Assembly: GCA_030737835.1 (NCBI GenBank)
Contig: CM060849.1
Span: 11,088,454-11,152,453, forward strand
DNA length: 64,000 nucleotides
Direction: 5' to 3'
From: Acorus gramineus
Lineage: Eukaryota > Streptophyta > Magnoliopsida > Acorales > Acoraceae
Position 1 is the stretch's first letter. Every line of letters starts with the position of its first letter. Positions 3,105-44,677 of this stretch are shown here, piece after piece. The notes beneath the pieces were generated by a model. The model did not search any database. It saw nothing but the letters and a program-made list of their open reading frames with translations, and was not told the DNA's origin. The translations under genes were made by a program, and so were the position numbers.

Positions 3105-5408
3105 CTAGTTTGAAGAAGTCGCATAAGACATGAAGAAATCATCAAAACCCTGGTACCCCTCCATGTGAGGTTTGCCGACATTCATGTAATCCGCTGATAA
3201 GTCTGGCAACTCGACATCATGGTCCAAGAACTGCATCACCTGCCTCATGCTTGGCCTAGCCCACGGAACGACGTGCGTGCAAAGCAGCCCAAGTTTCAGC
3301 ACCAACTCCACCTCCTCCACTGCGTATCCCCCCCCCAACCTCTCATCAACCGTCTCCATCACTGTCCCCTTAAGCCAGTGGTCCAACACCCAATCCATTG
3401 TATTCATCGTTTCTTCCGCCTGGATATCGATTGGCCTCCGCCCACACACCACCTCAAGAAGGAACGCACCAAATGAGAACACATCGGTGGCTGTCGTACC
3501 TTCATAGTCACAAAATTCATGTACGACAAATATTCTTTCATTAATTACTATGAAAAACATATGCAAAAAAATTATATGTTGGGTGTGAATATTTAATACC
3601 CCATGTTTACACATCAAAATATTATCTACTCCTAAATTGGCTCACGAGTTTAAAATGCATCTTGGTATCTAAGAGTTGTGCTCACGTATAAGCACATACT
3701 ATGTTTTCTATTAGACGATGGAGGACTAAACTCAGGGTCTGAAAACTCACTTCACCCTCACCATCACCCAATCAATGAGTCCCACAACCACTCTTCACCC
3801 CATCAACAGGCCAGATGTCACATATGTGAATACTATTTTGTGATAGTGCATACCTTTTCCAGTCTTGGAGAGCTCCGGCGCGAGATAGCCCAAGGTCCCG
3901 ACCACAAGGGTCGTCTGAGGATCGGTGCCGTGATCGTAAAGCTTGGCAAGCCCAAAGTCTCCGAGCCTCGCGTTCATGTCACCATCCAACAACACATTGC
4001 TCGACTTGATGTCCCTATGGATGACGAGCTGCTCCCACCCCTCATGCAGGTAGAGCAACCCCGAAGCGACTCCCCTCACAATGCGAAATCTTTGGCTCCA
4101 ACTCAATGCGTGCTTCTTCGTCCGGTCAAAGAGGAGCTTGTCGAGGCTTCCATTTGACATGTAATCATAAACCAAGAGTAGCTCTCCCTTTCGCCTGCAA
4201 TACCCGAGGAGCTGAACAATGTTGCGATGCCGAAGCCGTCCGATGCTGACGATCTCCGCCACAAACTCCCTCATCCCTTGCCTCGACTCAAGGGAGACTC
4301 TCTTGATCGCCACCTCACACTTGTTCTTCGGTAACATGCCTTTGTAGACCTTCCCGAATCCACCTGTCCCGAGAAGCTCTCGCTCTCTAAACCCTCTCGT
4401 CGCCGTATAAAGTTCCTTATACGAAAACCGGTGTGGTCCATATTCGTGCTCCCAATCCTCCATTAGCTCCACGAACTTGCGCCTCCGCCGCAACATCACC
4501 CCAATTGAAACTGCCGTTAACACCACCACCGATAGGATCACCGGTAATCCAATCGTCAGGACCTTTGGTTTCTCTTTGGGCCCAATGCGGGGAAGCGAAG
4601 GGAGCTTGGAGAGATCGAGATCTTGGGCTCTCCCAGTCATGTTAAAGCTCCACCCTAGAATGTAATGCGAGGTCAAGATGGAGCCCGTTGAAGAAGAAAA
4701 GCCAGCGTACATTGAATCCAGTGTGGACTCCGAGAGATCGATAGTGATCGACATGAGCGGAACATCCGGTTTCAAAACTTGAATTGGAGAGAGTGTCACA
4801 TTGAGCTCCGTATTAGATCCATCGTAGTCCACCCACAGCTGCATCGGCTGCCCGCTTCTAAGGCTCAGATTACGAAACCCGCGATTTGATCCATCACTGA
4901 AATAGCCTGCCGGGTGAGCTTCAACTGACCTCAAGCTATTGACGTCTATCCCGACATGGTTGTTGTCGATGTCGCCGAATTCATAGTTGAAAATCGTGTC
5001 GAGCTCGACCGCGATGACGTGGTTCGAGGACTTTCCATTGTTTGATTCACTGAAAAGGCCGAGGTACTGACTGGGGAAGGAGCCGGGGAGGTCCGTGTTG
5101 GGGGAGAGGACGAAGGCGATGCCATGGCCGCTCAGTTCGGGGTCCTCTGAGAAGATGGCGAAGACAAAGGTTGTGGAGAATGAGAAGGATTTGTTGAAGT
5201 GAAGCGGAGTTGGGTAGAAGGCGTGTCCCTGTTGTTGCTGGGTGGTGTTTGTGAGCCTCAAGAGGCCGTTGGAGGTGATCTCCGCCAGACCGTTGAGGCT
5301 CATGTTGGCTACTCCGAAGCCATTGAAGACGAAGCTTTCGTTGTCAGATGAGGCTTTGGTTTTGAATAGGAAGAGGCAGAGCAGTGTGTTAAGCACTATG
5401 TTGGGCAT
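3105..5408 (-). CDS. LecRK-1, L-type lectin receptor-like kinase (join 3105..3499, 3854..5408)
   Basis: Predicted plasma-membrane receptor kinase of 649 aa. Residues 1-20 form a signal peptide and about 22-265 a legume-lectin domain (AVELDT at 134-139, DNNHVGID at 148-155). About 283-306 is the membrane helix. The kinase begins near 340, with glycine loop GTGGFG 347-352, VAIK Lys369, HRD 464-466, DFG 484-486 and APE 510-512, so it is an intact RD kinase. The start is ATG at 5408, right after an A-tract on the coding strand; the in-frame codon at 5420 is GTG. A GT-AG phase-1 intron (3500-3853) splits the Gly codon after KTGK. Exon 2 carries DVFSFG to the C-terminus. The protein ends at TAG (3105-3107) where paralogues read CAG in SSDQ, so about 20 residues are lost. 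Motifs such as [18 protein letters not shown] resemble Arabidopsis clade IV LecRKs; this is from memory. Ligand unknown. Confidence 0.9.
3592..3820 (-). mobile_element. TRIM-family solo LTR inside the LecRK-1 intron
   Basis: On the minus strand the intron reads TGACATCTGGCC at 3820, then the LTR phrases 'gattgggtgatggtgaggg', 'gtgcttatacgtgagcac' and 'ccaagatgcattttaaa', and ends near GGGGTATTAAA. These follow the LTRs at 770-1278 and 10494-10900 in order. TATTCACA flanks both sides. The LTR makes up about 229 of 354 intron bases and runs in the gene's sense. Confidence 0.75.
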
Positions 5409-5589
5409 TTTTTTTTTCACTGTTAGAATTTTTATTTTCTAAGGTGCTAATGGTGGCTGCACATATTTTGCCTCTAATTCTTTGAAAAGAGAGAGTGGTT
5501 ACAACAATTCAAGAATTGAAAGTCGTGAGTTTGGAATTTTCTCTCCAATTCAATACAGCGTTTGATTTATTCTTGTCAAGACCAACAAC
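5409..5589 (-). other. 5' flank of LecRK-1
   Basis: Presumed leader and promoter-proximal DNA. An A-tract on the coding strand lies directly before the ATG, as in LecRK-3 and -4. Similarity to the LecRK-3 upstream DNA (the phrase 'tttggaattttctc' at about 5531 and 36461) stops near 5590, where the CACTA-type sequence begins. No clear TATA box was seen. Confidence 0.4.
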
Positions 5590-6614
5590 CTAGCAAGATT
5601 AAGATTTTTAGTCAATTCTATTGTTGTCCATTTCTCTGCAATTCAATGGAAGGATTAATTGTATATTGAAAATCATATTTAATGATATTTACCTAGGAAT
5701 CATTTCCATGATAAATGTGGGTTGTTTTGAAAAAAACATTTTACCAAGGAAACCACTGATTGGTAAATATGGTTCAAAAGTATGGAATCTGGTTATTTGT
5801 CTCAAATGAACTAAATCTTTCCTAAGGAAATAATTCCTCGATAAAAGTGTATTTAAAAGCAGATTTATTGATATTTACTCAGGAATCATTTCCATGATAA
5901 ATGTGGGTTGTTATGAAAAAAAATATTTTTACCAGGGAAACAACTCCTTGGTAAATGTAGTTCAAAAGTATGGAACCTAGTTATTTGTCACAACTGACCT
6001 AACTTTTTACTAAGGAAATTATTCCTCGGTAAAAGTGTTGAAAATCATATTAAATGGTATTCACCCAAGAATTATTTCCTCGGTAAAAGTGGGTTTTTTT
6101 TAAAAAAAGAATATTTTTATCATGGAAACAACTCCTTGGTAAATATGGTTGAAAAGTATGGAACGTGATTATTTGTCTCAAATGAAATAACCTTTTACTA
6201 AGAAAATTATTCCTTGATAAAAGTGTATTGACAATCATATTTAAATGATATTTATCCAGAAATCATTTCCTTTGTAAAAATGGGTTGTTTTGAAAAAAGA
6301 ATATTCTTATCAAGGAAACTACTCCTTGGTAAATGTGGTTCAAAAGTATGAAATCCGGTCATCCGTCTCAAATGACCTAACTTTTTACTAAGGAAATTAT
6401 TCCTTGGTAAAGGAATTTGTATTTATTTTAAAGACTTTTACCAAGGAAATATTTCTTTGGTACTAATCATTTAACGAACTTCATGAATCTTCTCTTAATC
6501 TTGTTCCCCTTTACCCACGCAATTTGAAATTTCCTGGGTAAATACGCACAATTACCAAGGAAACAACTTTCCTTGGTAAAACATTTGTGGCTACACATCC
6601 TTTTTCTTGTAGTG
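5590..6614. mobile_element. CACTA-type transposon end with subterminal repeats
   Basis: The right edge read on the minus strand is CACTACAAGAAAAAGGATGT, ending at 6614, the canonical terminus of plant CACTA (En/Spm) elements. Inside it are many ACCAAGGAAA / TTCCTTGGT inverted motifs typical of subterminal repeats. No transposase and no matching left CACTA end were found, so this is one end of a deleted or non-autonomous element. The left limit is set by loss of LecRK flank similarity. Confidence 0.7.
5661..6415. repeat. Tandem array, four units of about 187 bp
   Basis: Units start near 5661, 5848, 6036 and 6222. Each contains 'aatcatttcc..gataaa', 'gaaaaaa..att', a palindromic pair (accaaggaaa ... 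tccttggtaaat), 'ttcaaaagtatggaa' and 'aaggaaattattcct'. Units differ at scattered positions, so the array is not recent. Confidence 0.8.
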
Positions 6615-7739
6615 TTTCCTTCTCTTCTCGGTTGGTTTATTTTTGGATTTTTTATGCATGCATATAATCACCATCAACAATTCAGCGATAATTCAGCAAT
6701 AGTTAGTCTTAGCGCCTGCGATGTCTATCCTCTCAATTCAAGCGGGTCTATTCATGTCAAGTGGCCGACAACCAAACAAGAAGATATTTTATTCCTTCCA
6801 TTTTTCTACCGTGGTGCATATTCATGTGGTATTCAGTATACAAGGAAATCAGTTCCATATTGGACCAATCACCCATACATGTGGCCATCTGAAAATGAAT
6901 TTTGTATCCTCGTTTCTTATTCTGGATTCCTAGGAACTCTCCTATGTTCATGCATGTTTAAGATAGAATTTTGAAATTTCAACCAGAAAATACAAGACCT
7001 TGTTCGATTTTTTACGTGATTAATTGTATAGAGTGAATCGGTTCCTTCTCTTCTCGGTTGGTCTATTTTTGGATTTTTATGCATATATAACCTTGGAAAA
7101 ATCATATATCGTCGAAATACATAGCTCCCTTGAAACTTTATTACCACCTTTTATCTCTCTAAAGGATTAAATTGGATGTGAATGCCCTTTTCAGGTATAT
7201 TTATGCACAAAATAAATATTTTAAATTTGATAGAAATATCTCTCAAAAGTGCATTTATGCACAATTTAAACGTTTTTTGAGGGGTATCGTTGAAAATTAA
7301 TATTAATTCACTAAGATTATTTTGATAAAATGAGATTTTTCAAAGAGAATATATATGAAAAACACGTTTATTTTTTAATGTTGTTACACTTAGTCCATTT
7401 TACAATCAATATATATCGTTAGCTACCCGCACTCATTGTAATGAAGTATACCTTTTTTTTTACTGAAATGGTAGGTATACCTCATAATATTAAATTAAGT
7501 AGACATGCCCAAATACAAATACAAACAAGACAAAGGGCTGGTAGAAGAAAGGTCTACTGACCACAGGAAAAAACCTATGCTTGACTTACTTTTCTACCAC
7601 AATTCATTAATTAATACTTTATTTTTTATACAAAAATATATATCTCATCTAATATGATATATTTTTTGAAAACAAGAAGAAAAAAAAGGCATGTACTTCA
7701 TTTGAGGTTAAGTTTGAATTGTAGGAGGCGTATCTGCTA
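6615..7739. other. LecRK-flank repeat (inverted copy) and AT-rich DNA
   Basis: 6660-6970 is an inverted copy of the block found 3' of the LecRK genes ('cattcatgtggtattcag', 'ctaggaactctcctatg'). 7150-7460 is AT-rich and resembles 45040-45190. No gene seen. Confidence 0.5.
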
Positions 7740-7980
7740 CAACATCAACAATTCAGCGATAGTTCAGCAGTAGAAAGTCTTAGCCCGTGAGATGCCTTTC
7801 CTCTCCAACTCAATTAATGTAGGTATATTAATGTCAAGAGGGCAACAACCCAACAAGATGATATTTTGACTTCCATTTTTTCTACGGTGGTGCACATTCA
7901 TGTGGTATTCGGTATATGAGGAAATCAGCTCCATATTGGACCCATTACCCATATATGAGGGCACCTGAAAATGAACTATG

Positions 7981-8320
7981 GAGCGTGTTTGTGACAAAGG
8001 AAAAGTGAGGGAAAGTAATGGAAAGTAAATATTTTCCCTTTGACCATTCAGAAATCTAATGTGCATGTCAAACAAGGGAAAGAAAAAAAATTTCATCACT
8101 TTCTCTCCCCTATTTTATCTTATTAGAAAACGTGGTAAAAATTTTTCTCTTCCCCATAGGTGAGAATTTGAGATAAACTGATAGAAATTTTCCTACCACA
8201 TACACAAACACTATGAAAGTTGATCAAAAGGAAAAAAAAATATTTTCCACCACTTTCCATTTGACCTAAATTCTCTCACTTTCTTTTATTTTCCTTTCAA
8301 ATCTGTGCACAAACACACCC
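7981..8320. mobile_element. MITE with GTGTGTTTGTG-type terminal repeats
   Basis: The left end GAGCGTGTTTGTG and the right end CACAAACACACCC are inverted repeats. They interrupt an inverted copy of the LecRK flank repeat: the uninterrupted version at about 6895 reads 'gaattttgtatcc', here 'gaactatg' / 'ttggtatcc'. The target duplication is unclear, so the superfamily is not assigned. Confidence 0.6.
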
Positions 8321-8365
8321 TTGGTATCCTAGTATCTTATTCTTGATTCCAGGAACTCTCCTAGG

Positions 8366-9170
8366 TGTTGGAATATGAGGAATGGAACCGAACATAACAA
8401 TTTTAGACTTTGAGGCATGTAGCAAATACCCTTTCTTTAAGCGATATTTACTCTCACTTTAAAACAAAGTTGCTATAGGGATTCTCTGCAAACTCACTCC
8501 TGGATACAATGAAGCCTTATTAGATTTGAGATCAACAAAATGAAAATCTAATCGGACTCTCTTTGGTTGCTGTGTTTATGGCAGATAAATGTAAGTCTAA
8601 CAGGGTTTAGAAAAACTAGATTGGGTGAGTTTTCAAGGAGGAAGAAGAAGGTGTATTTTCTGCAAATCCAATCCCCCTTTTAAAGACTCAATCACAATTG
8701 TTCCCAACAGTTGCAGGCAGTTATAACTATCTGGTAGTTCAATTCGAAATTGAAACTCAACTGGTTGATCTCATCCTCAATCAACGGCTCTTGATTGATC
8801 TCTCAAACCCAACGGTGGTCATTAATTAATCGGATTTTATACACATAATGCATCACACATAACGTTTAAATTAATGCAAAAAATCAATGCACTATTAAAA
8901 CGTTATAAGTATTTAATTCAACTGATGCGAAAGTGCTAAGTGCTAAGAATAACATATGCGGTGCACGTGCAAACCCATGTGCATTTGTCCTTGTTCCACA
9001 ATAATAACATGTGTACTAAGCCCTCCCATATATATCACTCCAATCTAAACCATTTAACCAATGTAAGACTATTTGAAAAACTTTATGTGTAAAACTAAAA
9101 AATTACAACATAAAGAAAATAAAATACATGATATATTGTTTATATTGAATCAATAAAAATAAACTCAACA
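8366..9170 (-). mobile_element. Copia-type solo LTR, 805 bp, 5-bp duplication CTAGG
   Basis: It starts TGTTG and ends CAACA, flanked by CTAGG at 8361-8365 and 9171-9175. The interrupted host text 'aactctcctagg|ttcatgcatg' is continuous in the related copies at about 6945 and 47775. On the minus strand it has the copia-LTR phrase 'ttacattggttaaatgg' followed by a TATATAT box, giving minus orientation. No internal region is present. Confidence 0.88.
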
Positions 9171-9175
9171 CTAGG

Positions 9176-10493: not shown

Positions 10494-10900
10494 TGATGCC
10501 TGGCCCGTTGAGGGGGTGGTAGGCCAAAGAGTCCCAAGATGCTCATGGATTGGATAAGAGTGAGAATGATAGTCCCATATTGCCTAATGGGGGGAGATAG
10601 TCTGTGCTTATATATGAGCACAACTCTTACACACCAAGATGCGTTTTAAAGCCGTGAGTCCATTTACGGGCAAAGCGGACAATTTCTTGTTTTGTAAGCC
10701 TAAGGTGTTACAATTAGTATCAAATCATGTCCATTACGCGATGGTGGGTGAGGGTGAGGGTCTCACATCGTCTAATGGGAGGAGATAGTCTATACTTATA
10801 CATGAGCACATCTCTTACACATCTAGACACGTTTTAAAGCTATGAGTCCATTTAGGGGCAAAGTGAACAATTTCTTGTTATGTAAGCATGGAGCGTTACA
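10494..10900 (+). mobile_element. Second TRIM-like element, internally shortened
   Basis: The left LTR starts TGATGCCTGGCCC and ends near 10712 (GGTGTTACA). A decayed primer-binding site follows (TAGTATCAAATC). The second LTR lacks its first part and ends GCGTTACA at 10900. LTR phrases such as 'cgttttaaagccgtgag' match the element at 770. A convincing target duplication was not found. Confidence 0.75.
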
Positions 10901-10904
10901 TGTT

Positions 10905-11030
10905 CCCTAGTGAACCCATTCAATCCACATGCTTGTCAAGCACTTCCCACAACTCTTTCCTCAATGTTCTTAAGTGAAAAAATATTTTTTATTTGAAAAT
11001 TTATTTTGTTCTATTTTTCCTTAACGGACT
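10905..11030 (+). repeat. Duplicate block shared with 48220-48600
   Basis: The phrases 'cccacatgcttgt' and 'acttcccac' (first seen here as 'tccacatgcttgtcaagcac') and 'tatttttcctta.cggactc' recur in order at 48220-48600. This is the left part of a diverged segmental duplication. Its right part continues at 15845, after the inserted hAT element. Confidence 0.6.
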
Positions 11031-16019: not shown

Positions 16020-16200
16020 TTTTGAATCATCGAAGATGATCAATCTGTCGTGGTTCATATTGAAGTCTGTGTAGGTGGGCTTCTCTTTCTCGGTACGGGC
16101 TCCATCATAACTTCGCGTTACACACTTTGGATGGAGCTTTTGAATGAATGGGAAAGCAGAAGATCTTGACCTCTCCAAGCTCCCATCACTTCCTCATGGT
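16020..16200 (+). pseudogene. LecRK lectin-exon relic A
   Basis: On the plus strand, opposite to the cluster, frames give GFSFS, then after a shift GSIIT, and finally MNGKAEDLDLSKLPSLP. These match the end of the lectin domain in the LecRK genes (GFSSSTGS...GRAQDLDLSKLPSLP). A stop and frameshifts are present. The surrounding block is duplicated at 52660-53130, which holds relic B. Confidence 0.75.
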
Positions 16201-24409: not shown

Positions 24410-25181
24410 AAAAAAATCAATATAAATATGTGAAAAGTTAGCTAAATCAATTTTAATCCCAGTAAAATTGAAAAATCGCCATAGGTCCCCTAAAAGTATG
24501 TATAGATAACGGATTTAGTTCTTCAATTAAATTGTTTCAATAAATACATTCAAATAAATCCCTTACAAAATATAAAAAATTCAATTTAGTCCTTTTGATT
24601 ACAAAAATGCCTCTGCTTTTTCCTGAAAATTCTTCTGCTATCTTATACTCACCAACGGTAAAAAAAAAAAAAAAAAAATAGAAAAATTGATATAACTCCC
24701 TCGAAACTTATGAAAATCGAAAAAGGTCCCTATAAAATCAATAAATCACAAAGGCAACCACAAATTCGGTTAATGTATTTCAATAATTTATCTAATAAAT
24801 TTCAAAAGAGTATTACAGTAATTTATCATTATTTATTAGAGTCTACCACAGATCTGGTTAGTTCTGGTTACGGTAAGGACTAAAATGAATATTGTATAAT
24901 ATGATAGGGACCTGAGAGGATTTAGTGATTTTATAGGAATTTTTTCTGATTTTCATAAATTTCTAAGGAGCTATATCTATTTTTTGAAAATAAGGGGTGA
25001 GAGCATTTTGGTAACTTTTAATGTGCAGTTAGGGTTAATCATGTACCTGGTTAGTTGGTGTGACGCTAAGGACTGAAATGATATTTTTCTAATATCATAT
25101 GGATCTATGATGATTTTTCAATTTTACAAAGACTAAAACCGATTTAGCTAACTTTCTAGAGAGTTATATTGAGTTTTTCCT
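24410..25181. mobile_element. Foldback MITE in the LecRK-2 3' flank
   Basis: The ends 'gttagctaaatcaatttta' and 'aaaccgatttagctaac' are inverted copies, and much of the rest also pairs. AAAAATATATAT on both sides is a likely target duplication. The same element at the same place lies beside LecRK-3 (32790-33517) and LecRK-4 (41136-41890). The matching site of LecRK-1 (about 2800-2850) is empty. Confidence 0.75.
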
Positions 25182-25796
25182 TAAAAATATATATTCCAAT
25201 GAATTTTATGGACTCATTTGTAAAACGTGTAAAAAAATTCTTATGAGGTATACTCAATACCTTATTATAGTTAATGGAAGTGAATAAAGAGGTATATAGT
25301 ATAGTAAATATGACTGAAAAATAAACTAAATGTACAGAGCTACAAGAAGTAATACAAATAATAATGGAGTTTCACATACATTCTAAATAGATGCATTTAG
25401 TTCACATGATATATTAATGGGATGAGATCCTCTACTTGTTTATTTTTTGTACTTAGATTTTGCTTGACTTTAAATGTATGACCAAAGGTGCGACCGAAGG
25501 TGTGATGAAGGTGACCACAGGCGTAAGGGCAACCACTATGGAGCGAGTTTAGTAAGGCGATTGAAGTGAGAGCTTAGTGTTGAGGCGGCTGCAGGGAGGA
25601 GGGATGACGCATGAGCATGATTAAAATCAAACGGTGGAGAAATTATGAGAATTAATAACTATTCTAATTCTAAATTCATCAAATGAAATATAGACTACAT
25701 ATTTCCCATGATGAAATCCAAGCACACAAATTAAAAAACAAGCAAAGGATCCAAATCTATATCTGAACACTCCTCAAACCCAAACGTATCACCATA

Positions 25797-27895
25797 TCAA
25801 CGTCCACCAGAGAGTAGGGATACCTCAGCAGTCAAAGAGTGCAAGAGCGTCTGGTCTGAAGAAGTCGCATAAGACATGAAGAAATCATCAAAACCCTCGT
25901 ACCTCTCTATGTGAGGGACGCCGACATTCATGTAATCCGGTGATAAGTCCGGTAGCTCGATGTCGCGGTCCAAGAACTGTATCACATGCTTCATGCTTGG
26001 CCTAGCCAACGGAACGAAGTGCGTGCAAAGCAGTCCAAGTTTCAGCACCAGCTCCACCTCCTCTACCGCGTATTCACTCCCAAACCTCTCATCAACTGTC
26101 TCCATCAACGTCCTCCTCCGCCGGTGGTCCAGCACCCAGTCCACCAGATTAATCGATTCTTGCTGCCGAAGATTAATTGGCTTTCGCCCACACACCAGCT
26201 CAAGAAGGAGCACACCGAATGAGAATACATCGGTGGCTGTCGTACCTTCATAGTCATAAAATTCGTGTACGACAAATATTCTATCATTACTCCCAACAAC
26301 ATATGTAAAAAAAATTATTTGTTTGGTGTGAATATGTAATACCCCATGTTTCCATAGTAATATATTATTGGTTTTGCTCCTAAATAGACTCAAGGTTTTA
26401 AAACGCGTCTTAGTGTGTAAGAGTTGTGCTCACATATAAACACATACCATCTCCCCTATCAGGCGATGGGGGACTAAACTCATGGTGTGAGAACTCACTT
26501 TCACCCTCACCATCACCCAATTCTAATGTCTCTCAACCGCTCATCACCCCCCTCAACAGGCCAGGCATCACATATGTGAATACTACTTCATAATAGTGCA
26601 TACCTTTTCCAGTCTTGGAGAGTTCCGGCGCGAGATATCCCAAGGTCCCAACAACGTGGGTTGTTTGAGGATCGGTGCCATGATCATAAAGCCTGGCAAT
26701 CCCAAAGTCTCCGAGCCTCGCATTCATCTCACCATCCAACAACACATTGCTCGAGTTGACATCCCTGTGGACGACGAGCTGTTCCCACCCCTCATCCAGG
26801 TAGAGTAGCCCAGAAGCGACTCCCCTCACGATGTGAAATCTTTCGCTCCAACCCAACCTGTCCCTTTCTGTCTCGTCAAAGAGGAGCTTATCGAGGCTAC
26901 CGTTCGACATGTAGTCATAAACCAAGAGTAGCTCCCCCTTTCGCCTACAGAACCCGAAGAGTTGAACAATGTTGCGATGCCGAAGCCGTCTGATGCTTAC
27001 GATCTCCGCCACGGACTCCCTCATCCCTTGTCTCGACTCATGGGAGACTCTCTTGATCGCCACCTTGCACTTATTCTTCGGCAACACTCCTTTGTAGACC
27101 CTCCCGAATCCGCCCGTCCTGAGAAGCTCTCACTCTCTAAACCTTCTTGTAGCCATATAAAGTTCCTTATACGAGAACCGGTGCATCCCGTATTCGACCT
27201 CCTAATCCTCCATCAGCTCTGTGAACTTGCGCCTCCGCCACAACATCACCCCGATGATTGAGGCCACAGTTAATGCCACCACGGATAGAATCACCGGCAA
27301 TCCAATCGTCAGGACCTTTGGTTTCTCTTTGGGTCCAATGCGTGGAAGCGAAGGGAGGTTGGAGAGATCAAGATCTTGGGCTCTCCCATTGATGCGAAAG
27401 CTCCACCCAAGAATGTAATGCGAGGTAAAGAGGGAGCCCGTCGAAGAAGAGAAGCCCGCGTACATAGAATCCAATGTGGACTCCAAGAGATTGATAGTGA
27501 TCGACATGAGTGGAACCACCGGTTTCAAAACTCGAATTGGAGAGAGTGTCACATTGAGTTCCATATTAGGTCCATCATAGTCCACCCACACCTGCATCGG
27601 CTGCCCGCTTCTAAGGCTCATATTATGAAACCCACGATTTTCGGCACTGAAATAGCCCGCCAGGTGAGCTTCGACCGACCTCAAGCTATTGACGTCTATC
27701 CCGACGTGGTTGTCGTCAAATTCGGGGTTTAAATTCGTGTCGAGCTCGACCGCGAAGACGTGGTTCGAAGAGTTTCCATTGTTTGATTGGTTGAAAAGGC
27801 CGAGGTACGGAACGGGGAGGGAGCCAAGGAGGTCGGTGTTCGGGGAGAGGACGAAGGTGAAGCCGTGGGCGCTCAGTTTGGGGTACTCGGAGAAG
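25797..27895 (-). pseudogene. LecRK-2, L-type lectin receptor kinase pseudogene (25797..26245, 26604..27895)
   Basis: This copy lacks its start, signal peptide and first part of the lectin domain: similarity begins at FSEYPKLSAHGF near 27,895, directly beside LTR-type sequence. The rest of the lectin domain, the membrane helix and the start of the juxtamembrane region are open down to an in-frame TAG (near 27202) that replaces the Trp of MEDWE. A TGA replaces an Arg codon before the glycine loop (near 27130), and the loop reads RTGGFG instead of G-x-GGFG. The catalytic loop is HRDVNSSN, so the Lys two residues after the catalytic Asp is lost. The intron (26246-26603) and exon 2 keep normal borders, and exon 2 ends SLLSGGR. 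Together these make function very unlikely. Confidence 0.9.
26335..26570 (-). mobile_element. TRIM-family solo LTR inside the LecRK-2 intron
   Basis: On the minus strand it starts TGATGCCTGGCC and ends GGGTATTACA, flanked by TATTCACA on both sides. It is the best preserved of the four intronic copies, with 'ctcttacacactaagacgcg' matching the free elements. Confidence 0.82.
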
Positions 27896-28990
27896 GCTTG
27901 GCAGGCAAGCCATTCGGTTAGGCAAGCCATTCGGTCAGACATGTCTCCCGAGATCAGTTCTTCTGGACTCCCAAGTGGTTGAGAGACTAAAAGAAGGGGG
28001 CATTTGTGGGAGGCCAAATCAATCAAGGTTGAATAAGAATAGAATCGTACAAGTGTAAGGATTGAACAAGGATCGGCCCATGTGCGGGCCAAAGGATGGA
28101 AGGCCCATGGGCCCAAAAGTCTATTGCGGTCTAAGCAAACCCTCTTCCCTCGTAGGTCGGACAAACAATTAAGCCCGACCAGGGTAAAACAGCTATACGA
28201 CGTCGGTATCAGAACGGGAGCCAAGAAGTGCCCGACCTTAAGATTAAGCCGTCTAGAAGGCACTGCCCGAGTAGGAAGGCAGGTCGGTCATAAGGCCCTC
28301 TCCTTCTGAAAAACGGTTAGCAAATGGAATATTCCCTGATACTAGAAAAGTACGGGGGTCAGAAAAACAGTTATAGGATGATGATGATCCCTAGGTGCCA
28401 CATGTCCACAGATCCTGAGGCCACGTGGAGATTCCATATCATGATAAGATCACCCCGCAAGGCCAAGCTCAGCACGCCCCTGTTGAGTATAAAAGGGGGG
28501 ACTACTCCTCCTTCTCGAGGTATGCAAACACTGACTCTCTCTCCTATCAAGACTCAAGAATTCTAAGTTCCTCTTCTCCTTCTTGAGAAGAAGAGATTGC
28601 TAAATTGAGCGTCGGAGGGGCGTTAGCCGGCACCGCACTGGTGTGAGTTTCAGGTACCCAAAAGCGAAAGGAAAAGAGAGGAAGAGGCAGACAACTACGA
28701 AGGTCGAAGGCGGTGGTGAACTGGCGTGAAGAGAAGGGCTACATCCAAAGCCCGGATCAGTGAAGTTGGCCTAAGAGGGGAGAGCCAGATTCCCTCCCCC
28801 ACAATTACAACTCAGACTTGGAGTGGCATGAAAGATCCAAGAAGGATACACGTCATGGGATTAAGTTTCCAAGAAAAAAAAATTAAAAGTTTTATTACAA
28901 ATTCTTTTCGACCAAGTTCGGTCGCCCGAAACCTGAAATAGTGACCAAGTTAGGTCACCCAAAATATGAAATGACGACCTAGTTTGGTCG
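27896..28990 (+). mobile_element. Gypsy-type LTR region fused to LecRK-2
   Basis: It carries a promoter-like GTATAAAAGGGGGG (near 28489) followed by 'attgagcgtcggaggggc' and 'ccggcaccgcactgg', phrases typical of LTRs of plant Tat/Athila-type Ty3/gypsy elements. No pol was found. A 17-bp unit, gcaagccattcggt(t/c)ag, is tandemly doubled at the junction (about 27,903-27,938). Degenerate 'gacc.agtt.ggtc' repeats lie at 28908-28990. Element ends were not defined. Confidence 0.6.
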
Positions 28991-32229: not shown

Positions 32230-32269
32230 TAAGAGTCTAGTAGGATACAAAAGTTTATTTTCAGGTTGC

Positions 32270-32789: not shown

Positions 32790-33517
32790 TGCCTAAAGTT
32801 AACTAAATTGGCTTTAGTCCCTGTAAAATTGAAAAATAACCACATATCCCAGAAAATATATATGGATAACGGATTTAATCTTTGAGTTAAATTGCTTCAA
32901 TAAATACATTCAAATAAGTACCTACAAAATATTAAAATCCAATTTAATCATTTTGATGACAAAAATGCTAATGTCTTTTCTTGAAAATTCTCATGCTATC
33001 CCATACTCACTAACGGTAAAAAAAGAGAAAAATCGATATCTCCCTTGAAACTTATAAAAATTGAAAAAAATCATTGAAAAATCAGTAAATCCCTTTAAAG
33101 CTAAGTCAACCATAAATCTGGTTAGTGTATTACAATAATTTACCAAGTAAATTTTATAATGATATTACAGTAATTTATTATTATAGGTTAGAGTCAACCA
33201 CAGATCTGTTTAGTTATGGTTACGATAAGAACATGATAGGGATCTAAGAGGATTTAAATTATCGATTTTACATGGATCTTTTCCGATTTTTACTTGTTTC
33301 TACGGAGCTACATCGATTTTTCAAAAATAAAAGGTGAGGGCATTTTGATAACTTTTAATGTGTAGTTAAGGTTAACTATGTATCTTGTTAGTTGGGGTGA
33401 TGCAAGAAACTTAAACAATATTTTTCTAATAACATAGAGATCTGTGGTGATTTTTCAATTTTACTGGAATTAAAACTGATTTAGCTAACTTTCTATGGAG
33501 TTATAACGATTTTTTCC
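32790..33517. mobile_element. Foldback MITE in the LecRK-3 3' flank
   Basis: Same family and position as 24410-25181; the ends 'aaagttaactaaattggctt' and 'aaaactgatttagctaactt' are inverted copies. Confidence 0.7.
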
Positions 33518-34004
33518 TTAAAATATATGTTCCAAAGAGTTTTATGGACTCATTTGTCAAACGTGTAAAAAAATTCTTATGAGGTATACTTGATACCTTA
33601 TTACAGTTAATGCAAGTGACTAAAGAGGTATATAGTACTCTAAATGTGACTGAAAAATGGACTGAATATAACAGAGCTATAAGAAGTTAATACACATAAA
33701 GGAGTTTCACATACATTCTGAATAGATGCATTCAGTTCACATGATATATCAACGGGATGAGATTCTCTGCTTTTTTTTTTTGTACTTGGGATTTTGCTTG
33801 ACTCTCAATGTACAGATGACGAATCAATATATTTAAAATCAAATGGTAAAGGAACGATGAGATTAATTAACAACTATTTCAATTCTAATTTCATCAAATG
33901 AAATATGTATCACAAATTTCCCATAATGAAATCCAAGCACACAAATTTAAAAACAAGCAGAGGATAAATCTATATTTGAACACTCCTCAAATACAAACGT
34001 ATGA

Positions 34005-36357
34005 TCACCTGATCAACGTGAGAGTCTCCTCAGCAGTTGAAGAGTACAAGAGCGCTTGGTCTGAAGAAGTCGCATAAGACATGAAGAAATCATCAAAACC
34101 CTCATACCTCTCCATGTGAGGGATACCAACATTCATGTAATTTGGCGATATGTTCGGCAACTCGACATCGCAGTCCAAGAACTGCATCACTTGCTTCATG
34201 CTTGGCCTAGCCTGCGGAATGATGTGTGTGCAGAGCAGCCCAACTTTCAGCACCAGCTCCACCTCCTCCGCCGTGTATTCGCTCCCCAACTTCTTGTCGA
34301 CCGTCTCCATCACCATCCCCCTCTGCCAGTGGTCAAGCACCCAGTCCACCAGATTCATCGGTTCTTCCATCTGAAGATCGATTGGTCTCCGCCCACACAC
34401 CACCTCAAGAAGGAACACACCGAATGAGAACACATCGGTGGCTGTCGTACCTTCATAGTTAAAATTTGCGTATGACAAATATTCTGTCATTAGTTTATAT
34501 GAAAAACATATGCAAAAAATTATTATGTGTTGGGTGTGAATATGTAATACCCCATGTCTACACATAAAAATATTATATCTTTTCTCACGATTTTAAAATG
34601 TGTCTTGGTGTGTAAGAGTTGTGCTCACGTATCTATAAGTACAAACTATCTTCCCTATTAGGCAATGGGGGACTGAACTCATGGTGCGAGAACTCATTTC
34701 ACCCTCACCATCACCGAATCCATGAATCTTTCAACCGCTCACCACCCCCTCAACAGGCCAACCATCACATATTAAAAAAAATCAAAATACTTTGACAGTG
34801 CATACCTTTTCCAGTCTTGGGGAGCTCCGGCGCGAGATAGCCCAAAGTCCCGACCACATGGGTCGTCTGAGGATCAGTTCCGTGATCGTAAAGCCTAGCG
34901 AGCCCAAAGTCTCCGAGCCTCCCGTTCATCTCACCATCCAACAACACATTGCTTGACTTGACATCTCTGTGGACAACGAGCTGCTCCCACCCTTCGTGCA
35001 AGTAGAGCAGCCCCGAAGCGACTCTCACAATGCGAAATCTTTGGCTCCAACCCAATCGGTCCTTTTTCATCCCGTTGAAGAGGATCTTATCGAGGCTTCC
35101 GTTTGACATGTAATCATAAACCAAGAGTAGCTCCCCCTTTCGCCTGCAGTACCCAAGTAGCTTAACAATGTTTCGATGTCGAAGCCGTCCGATGCTTACG
35201 ATCTCCGCCACGAACTCTCTCATCCCTTGCCTTGACTCATGGGAGACTCTCTTGATCGCCACTTCGCACTTGTTCTTCGGCAACACGCCTTTGTAGACCC
35301 GCCCGAACCCGCCCGCCCCGAGAAGCTCTCGCTCCCTAAACCCTCTTGTCGCAATATAAAGCTCCTTATACGCGAACCGGTGCGGCCCGTATTCAACCTC
35401 CCAATCCTCCATCACCTCCGCGAACTTATGCCTCCGCCACAACGTCAGCCCGACGATCGAGGCCACCATTAATGCCACCATCGACAGGATCACCGGCAAT
35501 CCGACCGTCAGGACCTTTGGTTTCTCTTTGGGTCCAATGCGCGGAAGTGAAGGGAGCTTTGAGAGATCAAGATCTTGGACTCTCCCATTGACGATAAAGC
35601 TCCACCCAAGAATGTAATGCGAGGTCAAGAAGGAGCCCGTCGAAGAAGAGAAGCCTGCGTACACAGAATCCAATGTGGACTCCGAGAGATCGATAGTGAT
35701 CGACATGAGTGGAACCACCGGTTTCAAAACTCGAATTGGAGAGAGTGTCACATTGAGTTCCATATTAGGTCCATCATAGTCCACCCACACCTGCATCAGC
35801 TGCCCGCTTTTAAGGCTCAGATTACGGAACCCGCGGTTTGATCCGTCACTGAAATAGCCCGCCGTGTGAGCTTCGACCGACCTCAAGCCATTGACGTCTA
35901 TCCCGACATGGTTGTCATCGATGTCGCTGAATTCGGGGCTTAAAAGCGTGTCAAGCTCGACCGCGAGGATGTGGTTCGAAGAGTTTCCATTGTTTGATTG
36001 GTTGAAAAGGCCGAGGTACTGACCTGGGAGGGAGCCGGGGAGGTCGGTGTTCGGGGAGAGGACGAAGGCGATGCCGTGGCCGCTCACTTTGGGATATTCG
36101 GAGACGATGGCGAAGACGAAGGTTGTGGAGAAAGAGAAGGATTTGTTGAAGTGAAGCGGAGTTGGATGGAAGGCGTGTCCCTGTTGTTGCTGGGTGGTGT
36201 TTGTGAGCCTCAAGAGTCCATTGGAGGTGATCTCCGCCAGACCGTTGAGGTTCATGTTGGCTCCTCGGAAGCCATTGAAGATGAAGCTTTCGTCGGAGGA
36301 GGCGGCTTTGGTTTTGAAGAGGAGGAGGAGGAGGAGGCTGGGCAGTGTGTTAAGCAT
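34005..36357 (-). CDS. LecRK-3, L-type lectin receptor-like kinase (join 34005..34450, 34806..36357)
   Basis: Predicted 665-aa plasma-membrane receptor kinase. Residues 1-18 form a leucine-rich signal peptide and about 21-264 the lectin domain (AVELDT 133-138, DDNHVGID 147-154). About 282-306 is the membrane helix and about 335-620 the kinase: GAGGFG 347-352, VAIK Lys369, HRD 463-465, DFG 483-485, APE 509-511. The start is ATG at 36357, directly after an A-tract; the frame is open further upstream but has no other ATG. The GT-AG phase-1 intron (34451-34805) is at the same place as in the other copies. One Gly is missing after Arg445 (FRIVRVASG against [10 protein letters not shown]), an in-frame 3-bp loss in helix E of the C-lobe. 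The C-terminus ends AEETLTLIR rather than SLLSGGR. Family and fold are well supported; ligand and role are not known. Confidence 0.92.
34543..34767 (-). mobile_element. TRIM-family solo LTR inside the LecRK-3 intron
   Basis: On the minus strand it runs from TGATGGTTGGCC to GGGTATTACA and contains 'ctcttacacaccaagacaca'. TATTCACA follows the right end; the left flank has diverged. Confidence 0.78.
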
Positions 36358-37619: not shown

Positions 37620-39190
37620 TGCATGAGCTCACCTCACTGGAATAATGCTGCATTCAACTCCACAAGTCTTCACCGTTTGAGAAGCTCATTGGGAGGCCCG
37701 AAGCTACCCCAACCTGTGACCAACCACGAGAGGAGAAAGGCTGGGCATTGGCCCAGCAAATGCTTTGCAGTTATATTGGATGTGTTTACTCCCACCCCTT
37801 GTCATTCAGTACCCCACCCCAAAGAGAGAGGGGATCAGGGTGAGTGGCAGTTGGGGGGGGTGTGTGTGTTGGAGAAAAAAAGAAAGAGAGACTGGTTCTC
37901 TCACTTCCATCGAAATTGTCATCACCCTCCACCCCTTTGTTTATTTTTTTTTCTCTCTTCACAAAAAATAAAAAATCCATTAGCCCCCGTTTGTTTACAG
38001 AATAAGCCCCAAAATAACTAAGAATAAGTCAGAATAGCCCATTTATCTTGTTTGGAAGGCTGGAATAACATGTTATAACATATGCTAGAATTACCTTGCA
38101 TAAACCAGAATGTGGATTTCATGCTAGGGGTGAAATTAGGATATTTTTATTTATTCATGCACTCAAAATATGAGTGCCCATAGGTCACTTCAATTTTTTT
38201 TCTAAGCGGGACCCCTCTTGTCCTTCTCGCAGACCTTTTGTAGAGCCGTGCATTGATTTTCTTTTTCTTCCATGGCTTCTTCAACAAGCCACATGTCACC
38301 TACAAATCTAATATAAATGCTTCAAATAAGCATTTAAATAAGTTAGTTGGACAATTGATTAGTATTACATGAAATTCGGTACTCCATGAAAATATTCAGT
38401 TTTTTTTTTCATTTTAATATAGAGATTGTTACAACCCCACACTAAACCCAAGTGTGAAAAAATCATTTTCACTACTAAATGAGATGATGTTTATCAATTG
38501 ATGCTGTATTAATGTGGAGCAAAATTTAGGAAACCCATAAAATTTTAATAGAATAATAAATTTAATCATTAACTTATTCACAATTAATTCTAACATTATT
38601 CATCATCCATCGATCCAAACAACAAACAGTTTATTCTTACGTTTTTCAGTGAGAATAACTGAAAACATAACTAATTATTCCATTGCTATACCCACTTATG
38701 CTGGAATAATTGTATACTTTGGAATAACTCTTATTCTCTATCCAAACAATGGCTTAATGGGTTGGAGGATCCTGTAAAATGTGGTTGGAATAGGCAATAG
38801 CCACCCACATACGCACATGACACACAGGCGCACACACAAAAAAATGGGGTCTTGACTCTTGAGTATTTTTCTCGAATTTTACTGAAATCTTGAGGAAATG
38901 AATATATAATCTCTGAATCTCCAAAAAATAAGCCTTTTTTTCAGGGTTTTTCGGGTAGTGGAATAAAGAGATAATAGGAGGGAATAGGATGAGAATAAGC
39001 AAAAAAAGTTGACTGATTAGAAAAAATAGATGGGTATAGCTCTATCAGAATAGATGATAATAAGTTGATATTTGTATCCTTTTGAAATTGTATTATTCCA
39101 CTCAATATATTCCACAAGGATAAGGGGACTCACATTCCAAATCAACTGTTATCAGCTCTTATAAATCAGAGGATCCACTGATCAAATCAT
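37620..39190. repeat. Segmental duplicate B (partner 20060-21720)
   Basis: Co-linear with 20060-21720, including the MITE. Similarity ends near 39,190 at 'ttttataaattcttatcgg'. Confidence 0.8.
37983..38753. mobile_element. Tourist-like MITE, copy B, TTA duplication
   Basis: Ends GCCCCCGTTTGTTTACAGAA and (reversed) GCCATTGTTTGGATAGAGAA, with TTA at 37980-37982 and 38754-38756. Non-coding. Confidence 0.78.
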
Positions 39191-40759
39191 TTTTTTCACA
39201 TTTTATAAATTCTTATCGGCGTTGGGAGACGATGGAGGGCGCGATCGGCGTTGGGGTCAAGAGATAAAGAGGCAAATGATGTTTACTTACGGGTAAAAAA
39301 AGGAGAAAAAAATAGAATAGACGGAAGCTGGATGGAAGAACCTAAACAAAATACCATCACTAACTTAGGGACCTAAAGAAAACAAGAAAATGTCAGTGGA
39401 CCTATTATTATTACAGAGGTGTTCCCAGGGACCTCTAATTAATTTTCTCTTTATTTTTTCTAAAACACATTTTTTGTACTAAAAGTTAAAATAAATCTTT
39501 TAACTAAGTATGTTTTTGTGGAGCCGTTTGAGAACACTTTTTTATTTATTAAAACGCAAAATCTCACCCAAACTTTGGGTTCCAAATGTCAAATGAGGGA
39601 TTTTTAGCCTCAGAAATGTTCTAGTTAGCTTTGAACAATTTTTGGTAAATGATATTAACTCCTATTTTATTATAAATACTTAATTTGCCTTTTGTTTTTC
39701 ATAAAAAATATGGAATTTTTAAAAAATGTGTGTTAAATTTTACACAAAAAAAATTTCATTTGAAGTTTAAATTCAATGTTTTAATAAGAGTCACTAGTTC
39801 AACAATTAGATTAATCGGATTTGAACTGTGACATTATCATGACATAATACTAAATTTAGATAGTTGCATTAAAATTGAGACATAACTGTAAATAAACAAT
39901 AAAGATGAAATAGACAAATGATAGAATGAGAATTTTCAAAATTACAAAGAGTGATATGAAGGCCCACACCAAAACATTTAAAATAGTGATTTTGAGGATT
40001 TTTTTCATTATTAAATTTTGATTTAAATGAATATTCTTAGTTGAAATTGTGAAATATTAAATTAAATACTTGAGTGTGTTTAGAATTTGAAATTTAAAAA
40101 TTTAAATGCCATTAAAAAATTTGTATGCAATCAATGAAAAATTATTTTGCATGGTTGTAAGCTTTTATTTATTGATAGATTAGTGATTTTAGTGGAATCT
40201 AACATATTTATATTATATATTTATTTATTAACATTTAAACTACTATTATTTTAGTTTTTATTTATTTATATTTAAAATCTCATTCATGAATGATCTAAGA
40301 TTTCTTCCACTGTTATAAAATCTTGGCTATGCCACTACACACCATAATTGATTTAAAGTATCAAATGATGAAAGTTGAAAATATGTTGTAACAGAAAATC
40401 AATATCAAAATACTTATTCATTTAAATATTTTATCAAACATTTTGTATACAAGTTTCAAATATCAAAATATTTACAAAATCATATAGACATTTTGTCTAG
40501 GGACTAATAAGAAAAAAAATATTTAATATTGGGGACTGTAAATGAAATATATGAAAAAGGGAAAGACTGATCACTAAATAATATAGTTTATATGAACTTT
40601 AAAATAAAAATCACATTTTACAAACTAATGACGTATGGATGGACGTATGACGGAGAGACTAAAAATAAAATAGATAATTGAATTTAAAGATTTAAAAAAA
40701 AAATAAAAGAATTGATACCTTTATATAAGTATGTAAGTATGTTTACACTTAAAACTACG
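39191..40759. other. AT-rich spacer, no gene recognised
   Basis: 39450-39700 partly matches 30470-30860. The rest shows nothing recognisable. Confidence 0.35.
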
Positions 40760-41135
40760 TGTCCTTTGAGTTAAGTGTCATTTTGATGGGTTTTTGGCCA
40801 GGTGACATGAATAGACCTGCATTGAATTGGCGAGGAAAGATTTCACTCACGCGCTAAAACCTACTTTTGCTATTTTGTTTGGTTGTTGGCCACGTCATGA
40901 ATGGACCTGCATTTAATTGGAGAGGAAAGATTCCACTCACGCGCCAAGACTTAACTATCGTTGAATTATCGCTGAATTGTGGACATTGGAGCAGCTGACG
41001 CCTCTTTTACTTCAACCTTGACACCCGTTGAACAGTGACGAAAAAATAATTCAAAATGTTAGACCTGGCTTTGTTTTCGGCTTCAAAATAGTATATCTCA
41101 TTTAATAATATTTTTATAAAAAAAATTTAAAATAT
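40760..41135. repeat. LecRK 3'-flank repeat beside LecRK-4
   Basis: Matches 24030-24409. A piece of about 80 bp ('tgcattgaattgg..aggaaagatt') occurs twice in tandem here (about 40818 and 40909). Confidence 0.65.
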
Positions 41136-41890
41136 AAAAAAAAAAATTAATATAACTTCCTAGAAAGAGTTAAATCAGTTTTAATCTGTATAAAATTAAA
41201 AAATCATCACAGGTTCTCAACAAGTATGCATGGAAATTGATTTTAGTTTCTCAGTTAAATTGTTTCAATAAATACATTCAAATAAGTTCTTACAAAATAT
41301 AAAAAATCCAACTTAGTCCTTTTGATGACAGGAATGTCTGTCTTTTCTTGAAAATTATCCTGCTATCATGTACTCACCAACTGTAAAAAAAAAGAAAAAT
41401 CGATATAACTCCCTCGAAACTTATGAAAATCGAAAAAATATATGAAAAATCAATAAATACCTTTAAAGTTAACCAAAAATCTAGTTAGTGTATTACAATA
41501 ATTTATCAAGTAAATTTTATAAGGGTATTATAGTAATTTATTATTATTGATTAGAGTTAACAACAGATCTAGTTAGTTCCGATTATGGTAGATATTAAAA
41601 TGAATATTGTCTAATAAGATAGGGATATGAGAGGATTTAATTATAGGGATCTTATTTGATTTTCACAAGTTTTTAGGGAGCTATATCGATATTTCAAAAA
41701 TAAGAGGTGAGAGCATTTTGAAACTTTTAATGTGTAGTTAGGATTAACCATGTACATGTTTAGTTGAGGTGACGCTAAGGATTGAAACGGTATTTTTTTT
41801 AATAACATAGGGAATTGTCGTGATTTTTCAATTATACTGTAACAAAAACCGATTTATTTAACTTTCTAGGGAGTTATATCAATTTTTTTC
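41136..41890. mobile_element. Foldback MITE in the LecRK-4 3' flank
   Basis: Same family and position as 24410-25181 and 32790-33517. Confidence 0.7.
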
Positions 41891-42386
41891 TTTAAAATAT
41901 GTGTTCCAATGAATTTTATGGACTCATTCGTAGAATGTGTAAAAACAATTCTTGTGAGGTATACTTAATACCTTATTACAATTAATGCAAGTGATTAAAG
42001 AGGTATATAGTATAGTAAATGTGATTGAAAAATAGACTAAATGTAATAGAGCTATAACAAGTTAATACAAATAAAGGAGTTTCACATATATATTCTAAGT
42101 ATATACATTCAGTTCACATGATACATGAACGGGATGAGATCATCTGCTTATTTTTTTGTACTTGAATTTTACTTGACTTTTAATTTACGGATGACGAATT
42201 AGCATGATTAAAATCAAATGGTGAAGGAACGATAAGAATTAACAATTATTCCAATTCTAAATTCATCAAATAAAATATATATGACACATTTCCCATGATA
42301 AAATCCAATCACACAAATTAATAAAAAACAAGGAGAGAATCCAAATCCATATCTGAACACTCCTCAAACCCAAATGTATCATCTGA

Positions 42387-44677
42387 TCAACGTCCGCCAG
42401 AGAGTAGGGATGCCTCAACAGTCGAAGAGTGCAAGGATGCCTGGTCTGAAGAAGTCCCATAAGCCATGAAGAAATCATCAAAACCATGGTACCCCTCCAT
42501 GTTAGGGATGCCAACATTCATGTAATCCGGCGATAAGTTTGGCAGCTCGATGTCGCGGTCCAAGAACTGCATCACCTGCTTCATGCTTGGCCTAGCTGAC
42601 GGAACGATGTGTGTGCAGAGCAGCCCAAGTTTCAGCACCAGCTCCACCTCCTCCGCTGCGTATTCACTCCCCAACCTCTCGTCGACTGTCTCCATCATCG
42701 TCCCCCTCCACCAGTGGTCTAGCACCCAGTCCACCAGATTCATCGGTTCTTCCACCCGGAGATCGATTGGCCTCCGCCCACACACCACCTCAAGAAGGAA
42801 CGCTCCGAATGAGAATACATCGGTGGATGTCGTACCTTCAGTCATAAAATTCGTGTATGACAAATATTCTGTCATTAATATGAAAAAATATGTAAAAACA
42901 AATTAAATGTCAGATGTGAATATGCAACTCCACGTTTATGCAGTAATATTTTATCTTTTTCACTCCTAAATGGACTCACGATTTTAAAACGTATCTTATT
43001 GTGTAAGAGTTGTGAGAACTGAATTTGCCCTCACAATTACCCAATCCTTAAGTCTTCAACTGCTCATTACCCTTTTAACAGGAATGGCATCACTTATGTG
43101 AATACTACTTTGTGACAGTGCATACCTTTTCCGGTCTTGGAGAGTTCCGGCGCGAGATAGCCCAAGGTCCCGACAATGTGGGTTGTCAGAGGATCGGTGC
43201 CGTGATCGTAAAGCCTGGCGAGCCCAAAGTCTCCGAGCCTTGCGTTCATCTCACCATCCAACAACACATTGCTCGACTTGATGTCCCTGTGGATGACCAG
43301 CTGCTCCCACCCCTCATGCAGGTAGAGTAGCCCAGAAGCGACTCCCCTCACGATGCAAAATCTTTCACTCCAACCCAATCCGTCCCTTTTCGTCCCGTCG
43401 AAGAGGAGCTTATTGAGGCTTCCATTTGACATGTAGTCATAAACCAAGAGTAGCTCCCCCTTTCTCCTACAATACCCGAGGAGCTGAACAATGTTGCGAT
43501 GTCGAAGCCGTCCGATGCTTATGATCTCCGCCACGAACTCCCTCATCCCTTGCCTTGACTCATGGGAGACTCTCTTGATCGCCACCTCGCACTTGTTCTT
43601 CGGCAACACGCCTTTATAAACCCTCCCGAACCCACCAGCCCCGAGAAGCTCTTGCTCTCTAAACCCTCTTGTGGCCATATAAAGTTCCTTATATGAGAAC
43701 CGGTGCGGCCCGTATTCATGCTCCCAATCCTCCATCAGCTCCGCAAACTTGTGCCTCCGCCACAGTGTCACCCCGATGATTGAGGCCGCTGTTAATGCGA
43801 CCACTGACAGGATCACCGGCAATCCAATCGTTAGGACCTTTGGTTTCTCTTTGGGTCCAATGCGCGGAAGTGAAGGGAGCCTAGAGAGATCGAGATCTTG
43901 GGCTTTCCCATTGATGCAAAAGCTCCACCCAAGAATGTAATGTGAATTCAAGACGGATCCAGTCGAAGAAGAGAAGCCCGCGTACATAGAATCCAATGTC
44001 GAATCCGAGAGATCGATGGTGATCGACATGAGTGGAACATCCGGTTTCAAAACTCGAATTGGAGAGAGTGTCACATTGAGCTGCGTATTGAGTCCATCAT
44101 AGTCCACCCACAGCTGCATCGGCCTGCCGCTTATAAGGCTCAAATTATGGAACCCGATGTTTGATCCGTCACTGAAATAGCCCGCCGTGTGAGCTTCGAC
44201 CGACCTCAAGCCATTGACGTCTATCCCGACGTGGTTGTCGTTGATGTCACCGAATTCGGGGCTTAAAATCGTGTCAAGCTCGACCGCGAAGACGTGGTTC
44301 GAAGAGTTTCCATTGTTTGATTGGTTGAAAAGGCCGAGGTACGGACCGGGGAGGGAGCCGGGGAGGTCGGTGTTCGGGGAGAGGACGAAGGTGAAGCCGT
44401 GGGCGCTCAGTTTGGGGTACTCGGAGATGATGGCGAAGACGAAGGTTGTGGAGAAAGAGAAGGATTTGTTGAAGTGAAGCAGAGTTGGATGGAAGGCGTG
44501 TCCCTGTTGTTGCTGGGTGGTGTTTGTGAGCCTCAAGAGGCCATTGGAGGTGATCTCCGCCAGACCGTTGAGGGTCATGTTGGCTCCTCGGAAGCCATTG
44601 AAGATGAAGCTTTCATCGGAGATGGAGGCTTTGGTTTCGAAGAGGAGGAGGAGGAAGCAGACCAGTGTGTTAAGCAT
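42387..44677 (-). CDS. LecRK-4, L-type lectin receptor-like kinase (join 42387..42835, 43126..44677)
   Basis: Predicted 666-aa plasma-membrane receptor kinase and the best preserved copy. Residues 1-18 form the signal peptide and about 21-263 the legume-lectin domain (AVELDT 131-136, NDNHVGID 146-153). About 281-305 is the membrane helix and about 335-620 the kinase: GAGGFG 346-351, VAIK Lys368, HRD 463-465, DFG 483-485, APE 509-511. The start is ATG at 44677 (MLNTLVCFLLLLF), a few bases after an A-tract; the frame is open upstream but has no other ATG. The GT-AG phase-1 intron (42836-43125) is shorter than in the paralogues because its LTR has a deletion. The C-terminus ends EASLLSGGR. Subdomains follow the usual order with no missing catalytic residue. 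Ligand unknown. Confidence 0.93.
42923..43092 (-). mobile_element. TRIM-family solo LTR inside the LecRK-4 intron, internally deleted
   Basis: On the minus strand it starts TGATGCCATTCC and ends near GGAGTTGCA, with TATTCACAT on both sides. The central part that reads 'tttagtccc..atcg..taat' in the other copies is deleted. 'Ttttaaaatcgtgagtcca' remains. Confidence 0.72.

Follow-up and report, generated by a model that had tools for sequence, protein, structure and literature searches.

How does the sole intron of a gene come to consist mostly of a retrotransposon: did the element make the intron, or did it settle in an intron that was already there? This question is raised by a 64,000-nt stretch of the Acorus gramineus genome (assembly GCA_030737835.1, contig CM060849.1, positions 11,088,454 to 11,152,453; hereafter the window), the minus strand of which carries four L-type lectin receptor kinase (LecRK) genes, termed g1 to g4. 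A single intron interrupts each of them, largely filled by a long terminal repeat (LTR) of a terminal-repeat retrotransposon in miniature (TRIM). We judge, with a probability of roughly 0.87, that a TRIM invaded a short pre-existing intron, was reduced to a solo LTR and was then copied together with the genes. Published work is cited throughout from excerpts of the papers concerned.

Four LecRK genes share one intron

Removal of the intron yields open reading frames of 649 residues in g1 (3105..5408; exon 1 5408–3854, exon 2 from 3499), about 665 residues in g3 (34005..36357; exon 1 36357–34806, exon 2 from 34450) and about 666 residues in g4 (42387..44677; exon 1 44677–43126, exon 2 from 42835). 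The remaining copy, g2 (25797..27894), is a pseudogene, with a 5'-truncated exon 1 (27894–26604) that contains two in-frame stops, and with exon 2 from 26245. The g1 product, the one copy of the four covered by our Pfam scan, combines a legume lectin domain (Lectin_legB, PF00139, E 4.1e-81) with a kinase domain (Pkinase, PF00069, E 4.8e-48), as is characteristic of L-type LecRKs; g2, g3 and g4 were recognised by tblastn with g1. Ratios of non-synonymous to synonymous divergence (dN/dS) indicate purifying selection between the intact pairs of g1, g3 and g4 (0.22–0.27 in exon 1 and 0.35–0.39 in exon 2), and the three pairs that include the pseudogene give 0.25–0.26 in exon 1 and 0.38–0.54 in exon 2.

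In line with a preliminary description of the window, which had placed a phase-1 intron at the same position after the KTGK motif in all four genes, every copy has a GT-AG intron in phase 1 that splits the same codon (KTGK-G^GT; carets mark splice sites). The junctions read GGAAAAG^GTATGCACT ... GAAG^GTACGACA in all four, the upstream sequence in g4 being GACCGGAAAAG. Stops are present in all three frames of every intron (3–14 per frame) and the introns differ in length (354, 358, 355 and 290 nt in g1 to g4), so the segment is non-coding. Given these stops, the protein would need splicing at this point, and selection on the exon 2 frame downstream of the intron likewise argues for splicing. 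We therefore infer from the sequence that the four introns are spliced.

A candidate alternative acceptor, GACAG, is found in frame 9 nt into exon 2 in g1 (3491–3499), g2 (26237–26245) and g3 (34442–34450); the corresponding bases in g4 are GACAT.

A solo LTR makes up most of each intron

The TRIM family is seen complete in a free copy, T1, on the plus strand (768..1278). This element measures 511 bp, within the size limit for TRIMs (<1500 bp), and has two direct LTRs (about 768–987 and about 1067–1278) separated by a stretch of only about 79 nt (988–1066). Between the LTRs lie a primer-binding site (PBS; TGGTATCAGAGC, 990–1001), which we take to be of the initiator-Met type, and a polypurine tract (AAGGGGGG, 1059–1066), and the whole is bordered by a 5-bp target duplication, TGTTC (763–767 and 1279–1283), as expected of a TRIM. 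A second free copy on the plus strand, T2 (10494..10900), is made up of a pair of LTR-like halves together with an eroded PBS-like stretch and lacks a clear target duplication. Its LTRs differ from each other by a Kimura two-parameter (K2P) distance of 0.218 (153 aligned sites), against 0.096 in T1, so T2 is the older of the two.

Two further observations concern the free elements. The surroundings of T1 (390–770 and 1279–1700) look by eye, no search having been made, like a decayed Ty1/copia coding region. A small tandem array may be present at 59338–59655, where a short part of the TRIM LTR profile is matched weakly four times, at intervals (E 0.008–0.063).

Within the introns, all on the minus strand, the LTR lies in the sense of the gene in all four copies. 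In g1 (3500..3853) a 5' flank (3853–3825) is followed by the LTR (3824–3592) and a 3' flank (3591–3500). The same three parts occupy 26603–26575, 26574–26335 and 26334–26246 in g2 (26246..26603), 34805–34772, 34771–34543 and 34542–34451 in g3 (34451..34805), and 43125–43097, 43096–42923 and 42922–42836 in g4 (42836..43125), where the LTR has lost its middle through an internal deletion. These edges are uncertain by a few bases, as the first bases differ between the two LTRs of T1 and the introns. The LTR thus accounts for 233/354, 240/358, 229/355 and 174/290 nt of the introns of g1 to g4 (about 66, 67, 65 and 60%).

That the introns are mostly a TRIM-family solo LTR in gene sense had been claimed in the preliminary description, and homology to the LTRs at 770–1278 and 10494–10900 had been set beforehand as the point on which the claim would turn. 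This homology lies far beyond chance. Compared with the TRIM at 770–1278 by blastn, the introns give E values of 2e-33 (g2), 6e-28 (g1), 8e-20 (g3) and 1e-9 (g4); an nhmmer profile built from the four free TRIM LTRs only, with the introns excluded, recovers them at 4.4e-34 (g2), 1.3e-29 (g1), 1.2e-24 (g3) and 5.2e-11 (g4).

The sequence TATTCACA borders the LTR on either side in three copies, again as first described: in g1 (3832–3825 and 3591–3584), g2 (26582–26575 and 26334–26327) and g4 (43104–43097 and 42922–42915). In g3 the 3' repeat is kept (34542–34535) and a run of T stands in place of the 5' one. A single LTR devoid of an internal region, with a target repeat on both sides in three of four copies and on the 3' side in the fourth, is therefore best described as a solo LTR, pointing to past recombination between the two LTRs of a full element. 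Since plant TRIM-type elements such as Helenus (PMC10886601) and SMART (PMC3281118) make 5-bp target duplications, TATTC may be the true duplication, the additional ACA being coincidental and the first LTR bases eroded. The duplicated target differs by insertion, being TGTTC for T1 and TATTC(ACA) for the solo LTR ancestral to the intron relics. A 24-base stretch of the TRIM LTR, searched for as an exact match, gave 0 hits in viral and prokaryote contig collections, a search that is uninformative on plants.

The intron probably predates the TRIM

The position of the LTR relative to the splice sites bears directly on which came first. The donor lies 29 nt upstream of the LTR (34 nt in g3) and the acceptor 79–84 nt past the 3' target repeat, or 87–92 nt past the LTR if that repeat is included, so that the target repeats adjoin the LTR rather than the splice sites. 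Subtracting the LTR and one target repeat leaves about 108–118 nt, an ordinary size for a plant intron, and the flanks that make up this remainder are 62–77% A+T. The 3' flank can be aligned across all four genes and the 5' flank across g1, g2 and g4, with g3 retaining its first 13 nt or so; elsewhere in the window the flanks are matched by six stretches of 12–21 bases, all of them weak (E 0.015–0.064). Splice sites outside the LTR, common flanks and an LTR-free length of this order together argue that the TRIM entered an existing intron, and hence that the intron is the older of the two. Two origins had been offered initially, invasion of an old intron and an insertion that created the spliced segment; the former is favoured by these data, and the latter is disfavoured by the same splice-site positions and LTR-free length.

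The course of events would then have been as follows. A TRIM inserted, in gene sense, into a short, AU-rich phase-1 intron of an ancestral LecRK gene, an intron that would already have lain within the codon following KTGK in the kinase domain. The two LTRs of the element would then have recombined to a solo LTR between copies of the target repeat (TATTC, perhaps TATTCACA), and local duplication would have produced the present LecRK copies, each with the same relic, which later drifted apart. The splice signals would be those of the older intron, and the LTR a passenger that enlarged it about threefold. Most likely, then, the event was common in kind and involved no birth of a new intron.

Probably one insertion before the gene duplications

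Divergence among the copies is consistent with a relic inherited along with its host. The K2P distances between the intron LTRs (0.18–0.34) are close to the synonymous divergence (dS) of the four genes over the whole coding sequence (0.25–0.33), as those of a passenger duplicated along with its host genes should be. The 3' flank gives K2P distances of 0.12–0.23 and the 29-nt 5' flank 0.07–0.72, the wide spread of the latter being due to the changed g3. In a FastTree phylogeny the intron LTRs and the four free TRIM LTRs fall on opposite sides of a split with a local support of 0.999, and the former alone carry a stretch of about 22 nt, most of which has been lost from g4. This split, the private differences and the identical site are explained by one insertion before the duplications. 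The suggestion that the LTR predates the cluster is thereby upheld for these four copies, which also have the 3' target repeat (4/4) and the 3' flank in common.

Weighing the alternatives

Several observations weigh against an old intron later invaded by a TRIM. The acceptor GAAG^GT is weak compared with the usual consensus, and AAGGTA is found at both splice junctions, which would also be expected of an intron gained by duplication. The 5' flank of g3 is strongly divergent, with K2P distances of 0.46–0.72 over 29 nt. The intron LTRs group as (g2,g4)/(g1,g3), with a FastTree support of 0.72–0.83 only; this grouping matches the lowest dS over the complete coding sequence (g2–g4, 0.246, followed by g3–g4 at 0.251) and in exon 2 (g2–g4, 0.210), and conflicts with exon 1, where g3–g4 are closest (0.234), so gene conversion among the LecRK copies is possible. 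Finally, the statement in the preliminary description that L-type LecRK genes often lack introns, including most of those in Arabidopsis, agrees with published counts: introns are present in 5/38 genes in Arabidopsis and 8/72 in rice, as quoted in PMC11518778, and among 248 wheat genes 148 lack introns and 70 contain a single one (PMC12196811). An old intron at the KTGK site is therefore not assured, and this lineage may have gained the LecRK intron fairly recently.

The alternative that survives best, which we nevertheless consider unlikely, is a gain in two steps, in which a short intron with AAGGTA flanks arose earlier by insertion or tandem duplication and the TRIM invaded it later. The occurrence of AAG^GTA at both junctions in 4/4 copies is in its favour, and AAG is an unusual acceptor; against this, the ordinary splice consensus includes AG^GT at both ends. 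Shuffled sequences give inverted repeats as good as those at the intron ends, and past the weak 12–21-base matches the window contains no further copy of the flanks.

An origin of the intron from a DNA transposon was also considered and rejected, as terminal inverted repeats at the ends do not exceed those of dinucleotide shuffles in any of the four introns. For g1 to g4, p is 0.387, 0.998, 0.531 and 0.548 with 40-nt ends, and 0.256, 0.392, 0.066 and 0.231 with 60-nt ends; the 9-base inverted match in the intron ends of g1 (TCACAAAAT) is no better than shuffles either.

We regard it as highly improbable that the TRIM itself created the intron, by inserting into an intronless LecRK gene and turning spliceable. 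Such an origin would suit a family whose members mostly lack introns (PMC11518778, PMC12196811) and an intron the bulk of which is LTR. A TRIM-made intron would, however, have its splice sites in the element or at its edges, and here the donor precedes the LTR by 29–34 nt and the acceptor follows the 3' target repeat after 79–84 nt, both of them in non-coding sequence outside the LTR. Some other source would be needed for about 110 nt of non-coding DNA, and neither the element nor its target duplication provides the splice sites, as it would in an introner.

Separate insertions, one per LecRK intron at a hot spot, are barely credible in spite of the known enrichment of TRIM-type elements in introns (PMC3281118) and genic regions (PMC4717578), since the site is identical, the 3' target repeat is common to 4/4 copies, and the intron LTRs share private differences and stand apart from the free LTRs with a support of 0.999.

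Promoter-like motifs in the TRIM LTR

Both LTRs of T1 contain an exact copy of the upstream sequence element (USE) of plant snRNA genes, TCCCACATCG (consensus from PMC11961915). On the plus strand, the USE at 848..857 in the 5' LTR is followed after 25 nt by TTGTATG at 883, an imperfect TATA-like box missed by a plain TATA search, and that at 1139..1148 in the 3' LTR is followed after 25 nt by TTATATG at 1174. Three boxes resembling the monocot-specific promoter element (MSP; RGCCCR) stand upstream of the USE in each LTR, those in the 3' LTR being GGCCCA at 1081, 1087 and 1105. With the 25-nt spacing and the MSP consensus of the monocot U3 promoter as reference (PMC6181210), the layout of these motifs would be that of monocot U3/U6 promoters.

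By base composition the USE is expected 0.05 times in the window, and at least three MSP-like boxes occur in 45/6247 overlapping 130-bp segments from position 1400 on; as the USE motif was chosen after looking, such chance figures are only a guide, and the two USEs of T1, being copies of one LTR, count as one event. The window contains five sites that match the USE with no more than one mismatch, four of which are in TRIM copies (two in T1, one in the LTR T2L3 of T2 and one in the intron of g2), with one outside (53337).

These motifs prompt the tentative and rather doubtful suggestion that the relics derive from a TRIM family with a U3/U6-like LTR promoter, that is, a gene-external promoter of the Pol III type, unlike those of Cassandra, Helenus and Ajax. 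Counting against Pol III, the LTR T2L5 has two mismatches to the USE, and T2 has a single MSP-like box, in just one of its LTRs. Runs of TTTT near the expected start (900–903, 919–922 and 1210–1213) speak against a long Pol III transcript; under a U3/U6-like promoter, the TTTT just past the expected start could be the end point of a very short R region in the second LTR. An Rfam scan of the window with 4227 families gave 0 hits at the gathering threshold, and thus no 5S, tRNA-like or hammerhead sequence by that standard.

In the excerpts of open-licence literature consulted, we found no report of the USE (TCCCACATCG) in a TRIM LTR, and nothing on plant LTRs that links CCCACATCG with retrotransposons; the excerpted text of PMC6181210 mentions both the USE and LTRs, unlinked. 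The TRIMp3 elements (Cassandra, Helenus and Ajax; PMC10886601) are likewise TRIMs in which the LTR may contain a promoter of the Pol III type, but in their case it is derived from 5S rRNA or tRNA, whereas T1 has a candidate USE, a TATA-like box and MSP-like boxes, as in U3/U6 genes.

LecRK fragments and repeats in the surrounding sequence

Similarity to the gene breaks off directly upstream of the lectin-domain fragment of g2 (27895–28600), where the 5' part of the pseudogene has been replaced. Degraded LecRK pieces on the plus strand at 16030–16194 and 52741–52889 correspond to the end of the lectin domain and are similar to each other; a tblastn search at E 1e-5 found no kinase part adjoining them. 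Downstream of g2, g3 and g4 there is a common stretch (24750–25334, 33102–33670 and 41465–42045, respectively) with a spacing of about 8.3 kb and no g1 copy listed, which is a tandem duplication unit.

Discussion

Small retrotransposons within plant introns have been described before. Among SMARTs, 74/262 in rice, 62/99 complete elements in sorghum and 204/361 in maize are intronic, and gene structure was unchanged by the element in 36/43 comparable genes in sorghum and 73/77 in maize (PMC3281118); TRIMs as a class show enrichment in genic regions (PMC4717578). The relic described here resembles SMART/FRetro129 of grasses in being a very small, non-autonomous LTR element, present as solo LTRs in introns. 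It differs from those cases in its host, a LecRK gene with a single intron, and in having been copied through a tandem gene cluster. The intronic TRIM relic is thus a further case of an already known phenomenon.

The LecRK introns share with introners the property that a mobile element makes up most of the intron (PMC9860276). Unlike in introners, the splice sites do not come from the element or its target repeats, and the intron ends lack significant terminal inverted repeats. A survey of introns made by transposons, as far as excerpted, reports no case in land plants (PMC9860276).

If the doubtful promoter reading were true, a U3/U6-like LTR would add a new promoter type to the miniature LTR retrotransposons and hint at how such short elements get transcribed. 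The LecRK cluster itself offers a clean example of a miniature retrotransposon that would be a passenger in the sole intron of a duplicated receptor-kinase family, and it carries a caution: an intron that is mostly transposable element in content need not have been made by one.

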